Shown here piece by piece: positions 44,971-49,260 of a stretch of DNA of 64,000 nt; the stretch's first letter is position 1; the number at the start of each line of letters is the position of its first letter. The stretch covers positions 1 to 64,000 of the forward strand of contig NZ_BBYK01000078.1 in NCBI RefSeq assembly GCF_001570365.1, in the 5' to 3' direction. Source of the DNA: Microtetraspora fusca. Lineage in GTDB: Bacteria; Actinomycetota; Actinomycetes; Streptosporangiales; Streptosporangiaceae. Position numbers and translations under genes: made by a program. Below the pieces are notes generated by a model, which saw nothing but the letters and a program-made list of their open reading frames with translations, was not told where the DNA came from and ran no database searches.

Positions 44971-45184
44971 TTATTTGAGCCATGTGCGGACACGCGGGTA
45001 GGAGCGCCCTATCCGACGACCGGCCGTCGCGCCGGCCGAGGTCACGAAGGCGGGGCAACACCTCCGCGCGCAGCCGGGGCGATGTTCTCCAGGACCCGGT
45101 CGCGACAGCCCGCGCCCTCCACCATGAGGATCGGACACCGCAGCGGCGGTGGCCCGGGTCGTCCCGTCGGCGAGGCGAACGGGG

Positions 45185-45487
45185 TCAGTGGTCGTCCCAG
45201 TGCCCGTTGTGCCCGGCATGGCGGTGACCGTCATGGACGTAGTCCACGTGGTCGCCGTGCGGGACGGCCACGTGTCCGCACCCCGGCCCATGCTGGTGGT
45301 CGTGATCGCCGTGCGGCACGTGGCCGGACGGCTCGCACTCGTCGACGTGGCCCTCGTGCACCCGGTGCATGCAGCCGTCGTGGACGTAGTCCACGTGGTC
45401 ACCGTGCGGGACGGCGACATGCCCGCAATCGGCTCCGTGGACATGGTCGTGATTCCGATGCTGACGGTGCTCGGCAGATGTGGTCAC
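45185..45487 (-). CDS. Histidine-rich metal-binding protein with duplicated module
   Basis: About a quarter of the 100 residues are His. A module CGHVAVPHGDHVDYVHDG occurs twice, separated by about 30 residues with further His and Cys; the product ends HRHAGHNGHWDDH. The composition strongly implies binding of zinc or a similar metal, as storage protein or chaperone. It has no signal peptide or membrane segment. It lies 196 bases downstream of, and on the same strand as, the zinc-independent ribosomal protein genes, so it is probably part of the zinc-starvation response. GTG 45487 after GGAGACCA is tentative; GTG 45502 is also in frame. Confidence 0.78.
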   Translation of the reverse strand: MTTSAEHRQHRNHDHVHGADCGHVAVPHGDHVDYVHDGCMHRVHEGHVDECEPSGHVPHGDHDHQHGPGCGHVAVPHGDHVDYVHDGHRHAGHNGHWDDH

Positions 45488-45683
45488 TGGTCTCCACCCC
45501 ACTGCTGGTCATGGCGGTGCTCCCGCCGCCGGTCAGCGACCTCGTACCCGTGAGTCGTTCACGGGCAACGCCGTTTCTCCTCAGAAGCACACAGAAGCGG
45601 TAAAAACCGACAAATCACGGCGACCGGGTCACCCAGTACAGGTCCGCGCGCCCCCCGAATGGGCGACCCGGTGCGCCGCCGTC

Positions 45684-45851
45684 TCACCGAGACGTGATGA
45701 GCCCCCGCCGGTACGCGCGGACGAGGCGGCGTGGGACCAGCAGCTCCTGCCCGTTCACGGTGATCGGGACGAGGCCGGGCACGGTCGCCTTCCACTGGCT
45801 GCGGCGATGCCGCGTGTTGCTGCGCGAGGTCCTGCGCTTGGGCACGGCCAC
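45684..45851 (-). CDS. rpmF: 50S ribosomal protein L32, zinc-independent (C-minus) paralogue
   Basis: This 55-residue gene begins [20 protein letters not shown], the L32 N-terminus. The standard actinobacterial L32 then has a CxxC...CxxC zinc ribbon; here that region reads [20 protein letters not shown] with no Cys. It is therefore the zinc-free replacement made when zinc is scarce. GTG 45851 lies 2 bases after the S14 stop codon, so it is cotranscribed with S14, L28, L31 and L33. The short length makes it easily overlooked. Confidence 0.9.
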
Positions 45852-45853
45852 GG

Positions 45854-46153
45854 CTACCAGCTCGCCTTTGTGACGCCGGGGAGCTCGCCCCGGTGGGCCA
45901 TCTCGCGGAAGCGGACGCGAGACAGCCCGAACCTGGTCAGATGGCCGCGCGGACGGCCGTCGACGGAATCGCGGTTGCGGACGCGGGTCGCACTGGCGTC
46001 GCGCGGCTGCCGGTTCAGCTCCCGCACGGCGTCCGCCCGCTCCTCGGGCGTACCGGTGCGGACGAGTTCCTTCAACCGGGCGCGCCGCTCGGCGTAGCGG
46101 GCCACGACGGCCTTGCGCCGCTCGTTGGCGGCGATCTTGCTCTTCTTGGCCAT
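45854..46153 (-). CDS. rpsN: 30S ribosomal protein S14, zinc-independent paralogue
   Basis: The 99-residue long-form S14 starts [20 protein letters not shown] and ends [24 protein letters not shown]. It contains no Cys, unlike the short 61-residue zinc-binding S14 of actinobacteria, and can replace it during zinc limitation. ATG 46153 overlaps the stop of the L28 gene (TGATG), showing tight operon structure. Zur repression is expected through the dyad at 46826-46850. Confidence 0.96.
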
Positions 46154-46389
46154 CAGATCCTCTCTCCTCGGGCGCGGATCAGTGCGACGGCCTTCTCGAT
46201 GCCGATCCGGTCGACCGTCTTGATCGCCCGCGCGCTGAGCGTCAGCCGGACGAAGCGGCCCTCGCTCGGCACCCAGTAGCGGCGCCGCTGGATGTTGGGG
46301 TTCCACCTCCGGCGGGTGCGCCGGTGGGAGTGGGAGACGTTGTTGCCGAAGACCGGCATGACACCGGTGAGCTGACAGTGGGCGGACAT
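46153..46389 (-). CDS. rpmB: 50S ribosomal protein L28, zinc-independent paralogue
   Basis: The 78-residue protein reads [20 protein letters not shown] followed by [20 protein letters not shown], the L28 core. Zinc-binding L28 carries a Cys quartet; here only the N-terminal Cys5 remains, so the zinc knuckle is lost. Start and stop both overlap neighbours (TGATG at each junction), placing it firmly in the L33-L31-L28-S14-L32 operon. Confidence 0.96.
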
Positions 46390-46634
46390 CAGCCCCTCCC
46401 GTAGCGCTGGTTGAACCGCTCGACACGGCCGGCCGTGTCGAGGACTCGGCTGCGGCCGGTGTAGAAGGGGTGGCTCGCGGAGGACACGTCGACGTCGACC
46501 ACCGGGTAGGTGTTGCCGTCGGTCCACTCGATGGTCTTGTCGCTGGTGATCGTGGAACGGGTGAGGAACGCGACGTGCGCACCCGGATCCCGGAAGACGA
46601 CGGGGTGATAGTCGGGGTGGATGCCCTTCTTCAT
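46389..46634 (-). CDS. rpmE2: 50S ribosomal protein L31 type B (zinc-independent)
   Basis: The 81-residue protein begins [20 protein letters not shown] and has the type B insertion ([19 protein letters not shown]); it lacks the CxxC pairs of type A L31. Type B replaces type A under zinc starvation and releases its zinc. ATG 46634 overlaps the L33 stop (ATGA) and the stop overlaps the L28 start. Confidence 0.97.
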
Positions 46635-46795
46635 CGTTCCTCCCGGAACTCCACGTGGCGGCGGATGGTCGGGTCGTACTTGCGGAGCGTGAGCCTGCCC
46701 GGGTCGTTGCGCCGGTTCTTCGTGGTCACGTACGTGTAGCCGGTCCCGGCGGTCGAGCGGATCTTGATCACCGGGCGGAGTTCGTTTCTGGCCAA
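46631..46795 (-). CDS. rpmG: 50S ribosomal protein L33, zinc-independent paralogue
   Basis: This 54-residue L33 ([20 protein letters not shown], then [21 protein letters not shown]) has no Cys, where zinc-binding L33 has a CxxC...CxxC ribbon. The start is TTG 46795, 6 bases after AAAGGA. It is the first gene of the leftward ribosomal operon, and its start is 31 bases from the Zur-box-like dyad that it shares with the divergent CobW-like gene. Confidence 0.95.
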
Positions 46796-46825
46796 GTCGG
46801 GTCCTTTCTGATCGCCAGACTGTGC

Positions 46826-46850
46826 AATGATAACGATAACCGTTTTTATT
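46826..46850. promoter_or_regulatory. Zur-box-like dyad controlling both arms of the zinc cassette
   Basis: A 25-base AT-rich imperfect palindrome (AATGATAACG at the left, CGTTTTTATT at the right, 9 of 12 base pairs symmetric) sits in the 73-base divergent spacer. AT-rich dyads with AACG/CGTT halves are typical of actinobacterial Zur sites. It lies 31 bases from the L33 start and 19 bases from the CobW-like start, so one bound Zur could repress both. Confidence 0.8.
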
Positions 46851-46868
46851 CCTGCAACTGGAGGACCC

Positions 46869-48011
46869 GTGTCCACCCCCGTCGTCCTCGTCGCCGGCCT
46901 GCACTCCTCGGCCCGCACGGCGACCGTCGACCGACTGTTGAGCGAGCACCCCGGATCCGTCGCGATCCACCACGACCTGCACGCGGTCACCGCCGACCGC
47001 GTCCAGCGGGTCGTCCGCGACGCGACGGAGGTGCTCGACCTGACCGAGGTGCGGCTCGCGCACGGCTGCGTCACCTGCACCGTCCGCGAGGACCTCCTCC
47101 CCCAGCTCGTACGGCTGGCGGACGCGGCCTCGCTGCTGATCGTCGACCTGTGGGACTCGGTCGAACCACGGTCCGTGGCCGAGGCGATCGACTGCGACGA
47201 GGCCGCGGACATCCTGCGCCTGACCTCGGTGCTCACCGCGCTGGACGCCGAACGCATGCCAGTCGACATCACCCTCGGCGACCGGCTGTCCGAGATCGGC
47301 AAGCAGGCGGCCAGAGGCGACCGGCGCTACCTGGCCGAGGTGCTCGCCCGGCAGATCGAGTACGCCACGGGGCTGGTGCTGCACGGCGGCGACGAGGAGG
47401 ACGGCGACCTCTCCCGGGCGGTGCTCGCCCACCTCGCCCCGGTCACGCCGGTGCACGAGATCACCGCGCTGCCCCGCCCCACGGGCGCCGCCCTGTGCAC
47501 CGCCGTACTGGCCGAACGCGTCGATCCGGCCACCGCCCAGCTCCCCTGCGACGCCCAGGACGACGAGATCACCACGGTGGTGTGGCACGACGTGCGCCCG
47601 CTGCACCCCGCCCGGCTGTTCGACGCCGTGGACGAGCTGGTCACCTCATCGGTCCGCTCGCGCGGCCGCTTCTGGCTGGCGACCCGGCACGACCGGCTGC
47701 TCGCCTGGGACGCCGTCGCGGGGGTCGTCTCGGTGGAGGACGCCGGCCCCTGGCTGGCCGCGCTGCCCGCGGCCGCCTGGGAGACGGCCTCCCCCGCCCG
47801 CCGCGTGGCCGCCACCCTGGACTGGCACCCGGTCAGCGGCGACCGCGTCCAGCACCTGGTCTTCACCGGCCCGGACCTCGACCGCGAGCGCATCCACGAG
47901 CTGCTCGGCTCCTGCCTGCTCACCCGCGACGAGGAGCGGGCCGGCCCCGCCGCCTGGACCCGCTACGACGACCCATTCGCCCCCATCCTCAACCTGAAGG
48001 AGATCGCGTGA
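46869..48011 (+). CDS. CobW/COG0523-like protein lacking the P-loop, probable zinc-starvation factor
   Basis: The 380-residue protein aligns by eye with COG0523 proteins: the family metal motif survives as [16 protein letters not shown] (Cys67, Cys70, with Thr where CxCC has Cys) and the C-terminal CobW_C region as [20 protein letters not shown]. The Walker A loop, GxxGxGKTT in true GTPases, reads [13 protein letters not shown], so GTP binding is unlikely. Mycobacterial homologues in Zur-controlled ribosomal loci (for example Rv0106, and the ribosome hibernation recruitment factor Mrf, as I recall) share this loss. GTG 46869 follows GGAGG. S18 is coupled downstream (GTGA). Confidence 0.85.
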
Positions 48012-48235
48012 AGCCCCGCCGTACCCCGCGTAAGAAGAGCAACCCGCTGCACGGTGTCGGTTACATCGACTACAAGGACACCGACCTGCTGCGGAAGTTC
48101 GTCTCCGACCGCGGCAAGATCCGCAGCCGCCGCGTCACCGGCGTCACCGTCCAGCAGCAACGACAGCTCGCCCGCGCGATCAAGAACGCCCGTGAGATGG
48201 CGCTGCTCCCCTACGTCTCCCGGACCCGCGGGTGA
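48008..48235 (+). CDS. rpsR: 30S ribosomal protein S18, zinc-independent paralogue
   Basis: The 75-residue protein ([60 protein letters not shown]) is a full-length S18 without the Cys residues found in the zinc-linked actinobacterial form. GTG 48008 overlaps the stop of the CobW-like gene, so its translation is coupled to it. It completes a set of six replacement ribosomal proteins in the cassette. Confidence 0.96.
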
Positions 48236-48309: not shown

Positions 48310-49260
48310 TCAGTCCAACGGGCAGACGTGGGTGGTCAGCGGGCCGCCGTTCCAGGTCACCGCGTCGTGCAGGGCCGCCATCAGGTCCAGCTCGCCCCCA
48401 TCGGCGTCCGCGTAGGCGCGGTGCAGGTTCAGCACCAGCCGCTCGGCGTCCGCCCAGTCACGGAACTCTCCGAGATCGCACTCCCGCGCCGCGGCCAGCG
48501 GCGTGCGCCCCCGCTCACGTCCGCCCCGGGCGACGTCGAGGATGAACCGGTAGTAGCGCTCGTGCGCGGCCAGCACGTCGGCCAGGCCGTCCCGTCCCAC
48601 CAGGGGGCCGTGACCGGGCACGACGTGGTCGGGGTCGAACGCGGCGACCCAGTCGAGCGCGCGCAGGGCGCCCTCGACCGAGCCCATGAACACCAGCGGG
48701 GTGAGCCCGTGGAAGATCAGGTCGCCGGTGAAGAGGACCCGCTCCTCGGGGAGCCAGGCGACGAGATCGCCCGGGGTGTGGGCGGCGAAGCCGGGGTGCC
48801 GCAGCTCGACCCGGCGCCCGCCGGTGAACAAGGTCGTCTCGGCGTGTACGGCGACGCCCGGGAGACGTTTGGTGACGTTCCCCCAGTCGGGCACCGGCGC
48901 CCAGAACGCGGGGCAACGGTCGATGATCACGTCCTCGCCGAGCCCCCTGCGCATGGCCTCGTGGCCGAAGATCACGGCGGTCTCGGGGAGCACGCTGTTG
49001 CCGTACGTGTGGTCGCCGTGCTGGTGCGTGTTGACCGCCATCACGACGGACAGGCCGCCGGTGGCGGCGTCGACGGCGCCCAGGAAGCGGCGGGTGCGCT
49101 CCTCGGTGGCGCAGGTGTCGACCACGATGACGCCGTCGGCCCCGGTCACCGCGCCCGCGTTGTTGACCCACCACGTCCCGTCCGGCTGGACCCAGGCGAA
49201 GACGCCCGGCACCACCTCGTGCAGCGCCGCCCCCGTGGGCCCCCTGTCGACCACGCTCAC
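48310..49260 (-). CDS. MBL-fold metallo-hydrolase
   Basis: The 316-residue protein has the metallo-beta-lactamase motif AVNTHQHGDHTYGN (HxHxDH), a further ligand Asp/His in FTGDLIFHG and VVPGHGPLV. The active site should hold two metal ions, usually zinc. Substrates in this broad family include lactones, thioesters and sulfonates; the N-terminal VVPGVFAWVQPDGTWWVNNAG is typical of the SoxH/quinoprotein-relay-like branch. GTG 49260 follows GGAGAGCG. It converges on the S18 gene; there is no sign that it belongs to the zinc cassette. Confidence 0.87.
   Translation of the reverse strand: MSVVDRGPTGAALHEVVPGVFAWVQPDGTWWVNNAGAVTGADGVIVVDTCATEERTRRFLGAVDAATGGLSVVMAVNTHQHGDHTYGNSVLPETAVIFGHEAMRRGLGEDVIIDRCPAFWAPVPDWGNVTKRLPGVAVHAETTLFTGGRRVELRHPGFAAHTPGDLVAWLPEERVLFTGDLIFHGLTPLVFMGSVEGALRALDWVAAFDPDHVVPGHGPLVGRDGLADVLAAHERYYRFILDVARGGRERGRTPLAAARECDLGEFRDWADAERLVLNLHRAYADADGGELDLMAALHDAVTWNGGPLTTHVCPLD

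Follow-up and report, generated by a model that had tools for sequence, protein, structure and literature searches.

Several actinobacterial systems are known in which genes for zinc-free ribosomal proteins are linked to the zinc regulator Zur. In Mycobacterium smegmatis, MSMEG_6065 to MSMEG_6068 encode S18, S14, L33 and L28 (rpsR, rpsN, rpmG and rpmB) and lie beside the genes for MRF (MSMEG_6069) and rpmE2 (MSMEG_6070), with predicted Zur boxes at -58 of MSMEG_6068 and -57 of MSMEG_6069; the cassette genes rise by approximately 280- to 1230-fold on zinc starvation and are also derepressed on loss of Zur (PMC7174638). The gene numbering and box positions suggest that the two arms diverge. In Streptomyces coelicolor, the Zur regulon includes rpmE2, rpmF2, rpmB2, rpmG2, rpsN2 and rpsR2 together with a COG0523 gene (PMC6103462), and rpmF has also been named among Zur-repressed genes (PMC5472717). 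Rv0106, a COG0523 protein of the MRF type, has been described as missing both GTPase motifs (PMC2770081). Here, a 64,000-nucleotide (nt) stretch of the 9.0-Mb genome of Microtetraspora fusca (contig NZ_BBYK01000078.1, positions 1 to 64,000; hereafter the window) has been analysed, in which positions 45,185 to 48,235 hold two divergent arms: genes for L33, L31B, L28, S14 and L32, followed by a gene for a His-rich protein, on the minus strand, and genes for a CobW-like protein and S18 on the plus strand. This locus is the known actinobacterial module of Zur, alternative ribosomal proteins (ARPs) and MRF in a compact form, and it can probably be explained as a Zur-controlled zinc-sparing cassette next to a separately controlled zinc-binding protein.

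As in M. smegmatis, an ARP operon faces the MRF/CobW gene, one more ARP gene follows the latter and predicted Zur boxes occur on the facing genes; unlike the mycobacterial cassette (PMC7174638), the window has an L32 gene, S18 after the CobW gene, L31B on the other arm and the His-rich gene beyond. The S. coelicolor Zur regulon contains the identical six ribosomal proteins and a COG0523 gene, and the difference in the window therefore lies in the arrangement: these genes are all placed on one putative divergent operator, while no single shared operator is described in the accessible part of the S. coelicolor source (PMC6103462). An earlier note on this DNA, made from the letters alone, had named L32 within a combination that it called less familiar. 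That L32 itself is uncommon in such cassettes has been rejected, since L32 belongs to the S. coelicolor regulon (PMC6103462) and lies near the CobW gene in nine of ten named actinobacterial relatives (L030-L039, with short flanks in L034 and L039). Among the same ten, all five ribosomal proteins of the window's minus strand were found in eight and S18 after CobW in six, with the His-rich gene present only in Microtetraspora malaysiensis, which is the closest named relative as judged on the CobW-like protein (94% identity).

The coordinates and gene identities of the cassette that the earlier note had proposed were confirmed by reading frames and Pfam/NCBIfam matches, the CobW-like protein and each of the six ribosomal proteins matching their Pfam models above cut-off. 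On the minus strand, the rpmG2-type L33 (46631..46795) is followed by type B L31 (L31B, 46389..46634; NF002462), L28 (46153..46389), S14 (45854..46153) and L32 (45684..45851), whereas S18 (48008..48235) ends the plus-strand arm. L33 starts with TTG in the window and with ATG at the same place in the sister species (L007). The head-to-tail overlap attributed to this series holds from L33 to S14 (1-4 nt each) and not for S14 and L32, which are separated by a 2-nt gap; on the other strand, the coupling noted for the CobW-like gene and S18 takes the form of a 4-nt overlap. No cysteine occurs in L33, L31B, S14, L32 or S18, and L28 has lost its zinc-site cysteines and kept a single one. Family searches across the same genome revealed two copies each of S18, L28, L33, L31 and S14 and three of L32. 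Four cysteines are present in the matched core of the L33, L31, L28 and S14 paralogues (contigs C54, C45, C50 and C37, respectively) and of both L32 paralogues (C50 and C46), while the S18 paralogue on contig C38 has a CLFC motif immediately ahead of the matched core. These counts support the earlier view of the six window proteins as a cysteine-lacking (C-minus) replacement set, each with a cysteine-bearing (C-plus) paralogue in the genome. The L32 copy on C46 is divergent in sequence and is the second cysteine-bearing one.

The two arms are separated by a divergent intergenic region of 73 nt, within which the Zur-type operator (46826..46850) lies 18 nt from the CobW start and 30 nt from that of L33. 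The 25-base dyad reported there by the earlier note is present and imperfect, pairing at 9 of 12 arm positions, and is best read as two overlapping 7-1-7 Fur-type motifs (46828-46842 and 46834-46848) with a 6-nt offset. Sequences upstream of CobW were compared in 26 loci, the window's own among them, and 22 of the 25 relatives' loci contain a site that shares at least 12 of the 15 positions of the consensus TGAWAAYNRTTWTCA. In most of them another TGATAA lies 6 nt further upstream, which yields the same pair of overlapping motifs. No consensus site was found upstream of CobW in the other three (L019, L022 and L023), the start being only guessed in L022 and L31B lying directly upstream in L019. 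With a 23-base matrix from which the window was excluded, position 46827 scored 44.7 bits, while none of 30 Markov shuffles exceeded 16.7, but an identical site from a sister species is part of the training set. A stricter 15-base matrix, based on 16 operators from genomes outside the genus, gave the dyad 22.3, and the best value among 60 Markov shuffles of the 64 kb was 17.9. By this stricter score the dyad stands beyond chance, and the comparison supports a single predicted Zur-type operator shared by both arms.

This layout is consistent with a scheme in which, with sufficient zinc, Zur would sit on 46826-46850 and block both divergent promoters. When zinc is low, the six zinc-free ribosomal proteins would be made and would displace the zinc-bearing L33, L31, L28, S14, L32 and S18, a displacement by which zinc would be freed. 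The CobW-like protein would be produced along with them, probably not as an ordinary GTPase metal insertase and more likely as a ribosome-linked adaptor, for example one recruiting a hibernation factor, as its kinship to MRF would suggest. The His-rich protein would act as a small conserved zinc buffer or chaperone. As a very compact zinc-sparing ribosome programme, the cassette offers a convenient test bed for asking whether ribosome remodelling and an MRF-like protein cooperate.

The CobW-like gene (46869..48011, plus strand) has been assigned a GTG start behind GGAGG at 46869, an ATG frame at 46827 beginning within the operator. Residues 3-371 of its product match the MRF model NF047431 with 226.5 bits, compared with 156 for the model of the zinc chaperone ZigA (cut-off 600), and a CobW_C domain is present (PF07683, 63.8 bits). 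As the earlier note had observed, the protein lacks a P-loop: the Walker A pattern GxxGxGK[TS] is replaced by GLHSSART, where canonical relatives have GFLGAGKT. The GCxCC metal motif is likewise changed to GCVTC, so that the middle cysteine is lost and two are left (HGCVTC). This absence of a P-loop together with CxxC in place of CxCC, and the position next to ARP genes under a shared putative operator, agree with MRF/Rv0106, which has no Walker A motif, carries CxSC or CxTC, is Zur-linked and adjoins ARPs. In alignment A1, all 34 rows lack the P-loop and show two near-invariant cysteines in the former metal motif, the window protein being 31-39% identical to 11 MRF-type and related rows, a point in which it differs from MRF/Rv0106, as it does in its score. 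Because that score lies under the model cut-off, the protein is called MRF-like and is not filed as MRF, its kinship to mycobacterial MRF being supported by the sequence comparison. An AlphaFold model (pLDDT 92.7) has a COG0523 fold, with YjiA as the top Foldseek match (E 1.9e-12, at a TM-score of only 0.37-0.43).

It has been proposed that Zur-linked COG0523 proteins are zinc chaperones (PMC2770081), and the CobW-like protein might accordingly be seen as a zinc insertase or metallochaperone and not as a ribosome adaptor, a view that also fits its CobW_C domain and the two cysteines kept in HGCVTC. This appears unlikely, though less so than the other alternatives considered below, in view of the missing P-loop and middle cysteine, the coupling of the gene to ribosomal proteins and the condition of MRF proteins themselves. 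In a class-wide search, NF047431 was matched at E 1e-30 in 135 of 393 genomes and above its cut-off in 28 of them (30 matches), and the P-loop was absent from every one of the 28 above-cut-off proteins read (L180-L207, 28 of the 30 matches). The library name "GTPase MRF" is thus no evidence of GTPase activity. Canonical CobW proteins found elsewhere, including beside some cassettes (L033, L236 and L245), have GFLGAGKTT and mostly GCICC. The idea that P-loop loss might be peculiar to the window protein was rejected, given these 28 MRF proteins, the 34 rows of A1 and the published statement on Rv0106 (PMC2770081); one further protein (L060) appeared P-loop-less solely through a frame cut at its N-terminus.

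The second component of the locus is the His-rich protein (45185..45487, minus strand), which has 26 histidines and four cysteines in 100 amino acids (aa) arranged in two repeats. Its likely start is the GTG at 45487 rather than at 45502. No match to Pfam, NCBIfam or PDB sequences was obtained at E 0.1, another PDB sequence search returned only weak matches near E 0.1, and a structure prediction with a pLDDT of 49 was not used. In 16 chosen sequences, mean column identity reached 75%, with 35 invariant columns that are mostly His, Asp and Cys, and this high conservation argues against a drifting low-complexity sequence. The family occurs in 42 of the 150 family genomes, and matches, many of them partial or single-repeat, were found in 112 of 393 genomes class-wide. 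Small peptides on Rhodococcus plasmids contain the same repeat (59-60% identity over one repeat), although only once, compared with two repeats in the window protein. The name "zinc transporter permease" given to these peptides (L177) is not credible for such short His-rich sequences and is probably a misannotation; their records state no function. In literature searches, no described His-rich protein associated with Zur, ArsR or ARPs was evident.

The gene neighbourhoods of this family have been surveyed in 35 of the 42 family copies (the window was omitted and six others were unfetched) and at 47 class-wide loci, leaving aside 12 class-wide loci with partial or single-repeat matches (L257-L267 and L269). 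From the 83 loci scanned, 3 without the motif and 2 duplicates were removed, giving 78, of which 12 have a short called frame (37-76 aa) that makes the start and upstream stretch uncertain; the categories of linkage were picked after inspection of the data. ARP genes lie within 3 kb of the His-rich gene in nine loci (L142, L159, L168, L169, L174, L229, L236, L245 and L251); the linkage was called by identity to the window proteins, and the count stands, as the ARPs of all nine contain 0-2 cysteines. An ArsR gene adjoins the His-rich gene in 12 loci, overlapping its start by 4-35 nt in six, ending 114 nt before it in one and following it in five, and the encoded ArsR proteins all carry D-x-H-x10-H-x2-E, the metal motif by which SmtB/CzrA proteins would sense zinc. 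Fur-family genes occur within 4.5 kb in nine loci; their products are 33-53% identical to the Zur of this genome and some may therefore be other regulators, and a Zur-type box (score of at least 17) lies within 400 nt upstream of the His-rich gene in six. Altogether, 30 of the 78 loci show at least one zinc link, some of them weak. In two loci (L216 and L228), genes for ArsR, the His-rich protein and a Fur/Zur-family protein (50-53% identical to this genome's Zur) stand in a row on one strand.

These neighbourhoods support zinc handling at the level of the family, and the His-rich protein is likely a zinc buffer or chaperone. The suggestion that it handles zinc, made in the earlier note, is upheld to this extent, while the source of that zinc in ribosome remodelling remains an inference. 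The gene could instead be a chance neighbour of the cassette that serves another metal or stress, an explanation in keeping with its diverse neighbours, with the 48 of 78 loci in which none of the zinc links sought was found and with the weak excess of Zur boxes outside cassettes, which occur in 4 of 69 non-cassette loci and, ahead of other genes, in 7 of the 283 regions compared (p=0.15). Measured against 6 of 843 tiles, the same 4 of 69 reach p=0.0045. A chance association nonetheless seems improbable, given that cassette linkage was seen in 9 of 78 loci where a rough estimate expects about 0.3, in several arrangements and three families (f1, f45 and f6), and that an ArsR gene with the D-x-H-x10-H-x2-E motif adjoins the His-rich gene in 12. 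The nine cassette-linked loci are partly related, as L174 is M. malaysiensis, near the window, and L168, L245 and L251 belong to one genus, which leaves approximately five or six independent events. A broader and more tentative proposal, which we consider possible and somewhat doubtful, is that the two-repeat protein stands for a family of actinobacterial zinc buffers or chaperones not described before, which serves in both arms of zinc control: some genomes would pair it with an SmtB/CzrA-type ArsR, and others would have it next to ARP cassettes with Zur boxes, where it would receive the zinc freed from ribosomes. If the family does hold zinc, it would bear on the question of where ribosome-released zinc goes.

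The earlier note had placed the entire 3 kb in one Zur regulon, with the His-rich gene after L32. The His-rich gene is indeed downstream on the same strand, but 196 nt separate its start from the L32 stop, which leaves it without tight coupling; a single Zur unit is supported for the cassette with its shared Zur-type operator and not for the His-rich gene. Directly 3' of the L32 stop, a terminator-like hairpin (45609..45683, minus strand) is predicted to fold with -46.8 kcal/mol (z -3.2), and it forms part of the 196-nt leader of the His-rich gene (45488..45683, minus strand). A short terminator-like match is found at 45633-45619, two such matches occurring in the stretch against 0.8 expected. 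Among nine relatives, the hairpin region has a z below -3.5 in five (L030, L031, L033, L009 and L011) and of -2.0 in L032. Since it is kept after L32 in L031 and L033, where no His-rich match occurs within 4.8 kb beyond L32 (in L009 and L011 only 0.3 kb was covered), the hairpin seems to mark the end of the cassette. Without its last 16 nt, the leader aligns to the leaders of L141 (43.0) and L140 (37.0), both stand-alone copies from the same genus, and none of 325 random stretches scored above 23.5. No Zur-type site in the leader is among the window's best matches, and a sigma-70 consensus scan of 45100-46900, a weak test for an actinobacterium, found no promoter. Three further genomes from this genus carry the His-rich and CobW-like genes on different contigs.

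An alternative is that a Zur-controlled transcript runs from L33 and ends with the His-rich gene, whose product would buffer zinc from ribosome remodelling. In the window and M. malaysiensis (L030, with L174 on the same contig), the gene comes next on the same strand, as it does after S14 in G150/L142, and the six Zur-type boxes upstream of His-rich genes in other genomes point in the same direction. We nevertheless regard such a transcript as rather improbable: the 196-nt gap contrasts with the overlaps or 2-nt gap among the other genes, the hairpin after L32 intervenes, the leader is common to two stand-alone copies, and no Zur box lies within 400 nt of three stand-alone His-rich copies of the same genus. 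Because of this gap, hairpin and shared leader, the His-rich gene is probably transcribed apart from the cassette, perhaps with some read-through.

Several results weigh against the explanation preferred here, that of a Zur-controlled cassette beside a separately controlled zinc binder; they include the 48 loci without a zinc link and the weak excess of Zur boxes described above. The hairpin is without a close T-run, and its region has a z above -1 in three of the nine relatives folded (L034, L035 and L142), of which L142 retains a 13-pair stem. For a third stand-alone copy of the genus, L143 (20.5), and for L142 (17.5), the alignment of the leader does not rise above the noise. The window dyad departs from the 15-base consensus at two positions, the score of the CobW-like protein falls short of the MRF cut-off of 375, and in the closest named relative, M. 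malaysiensis (L030), no S18 match follows the CobW-like gene (past 7140).

A genome-wide search for the operator motif with at most two mismatches found 32 places, compared with 5 for a reversed control pattern, and the surroundings of 10 of the 32 were inspected, with genes named from their translations except for zur (contig C58), which matches PF01475. Three places have a single mismatch, and one of these precedes, by about 20 nt, the znuA gene of a znuA-znuC-znuB-zur run in the same genome, while one with two mismatches lies between two divergent ABC transporter genes. That the dyad serves another Fur-family regulator is very improbable, even with three PF01475 genes in the genome and Fur-type motifs alike in form, considering the same motif ahead of znuA and target genes that are zinc-site replacements, as in the published Zur regulons (PMC7174638, PMC6103462).

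Further observations were made around these features. A Zur-type box, TGGAAATGATTTTCA, precedes a gene reading like a CooC/MinD-type ATPase (L118, contig C38:208700-212800), and a 65% identical ATPase-like gene follows a similar box in L089/L153, adjoining His-rich and ArsR genes. Next to S18, a minus-strand frame (48310-49260) reads, from its translation alone, as a metallo-beta-lactamase-fold hydrolase (HxHxDH); in M. smegmatis, the zinc-affected metallo-beta-lactamase gene MSMEG_6071 also adjoins the cassette (PMC7174638). S18 follows the CobW-like gene in the window and in Microtetraspora glauca, unlike in M. malaysiensis. In Microtetraspora sp. NBRC 16547 (L033), the match to a canonical CobW (GFLGAGKTT) begins about 12 nt past that of S18, and the MRF-like gene, S18 and a true CobW may there share one operon.

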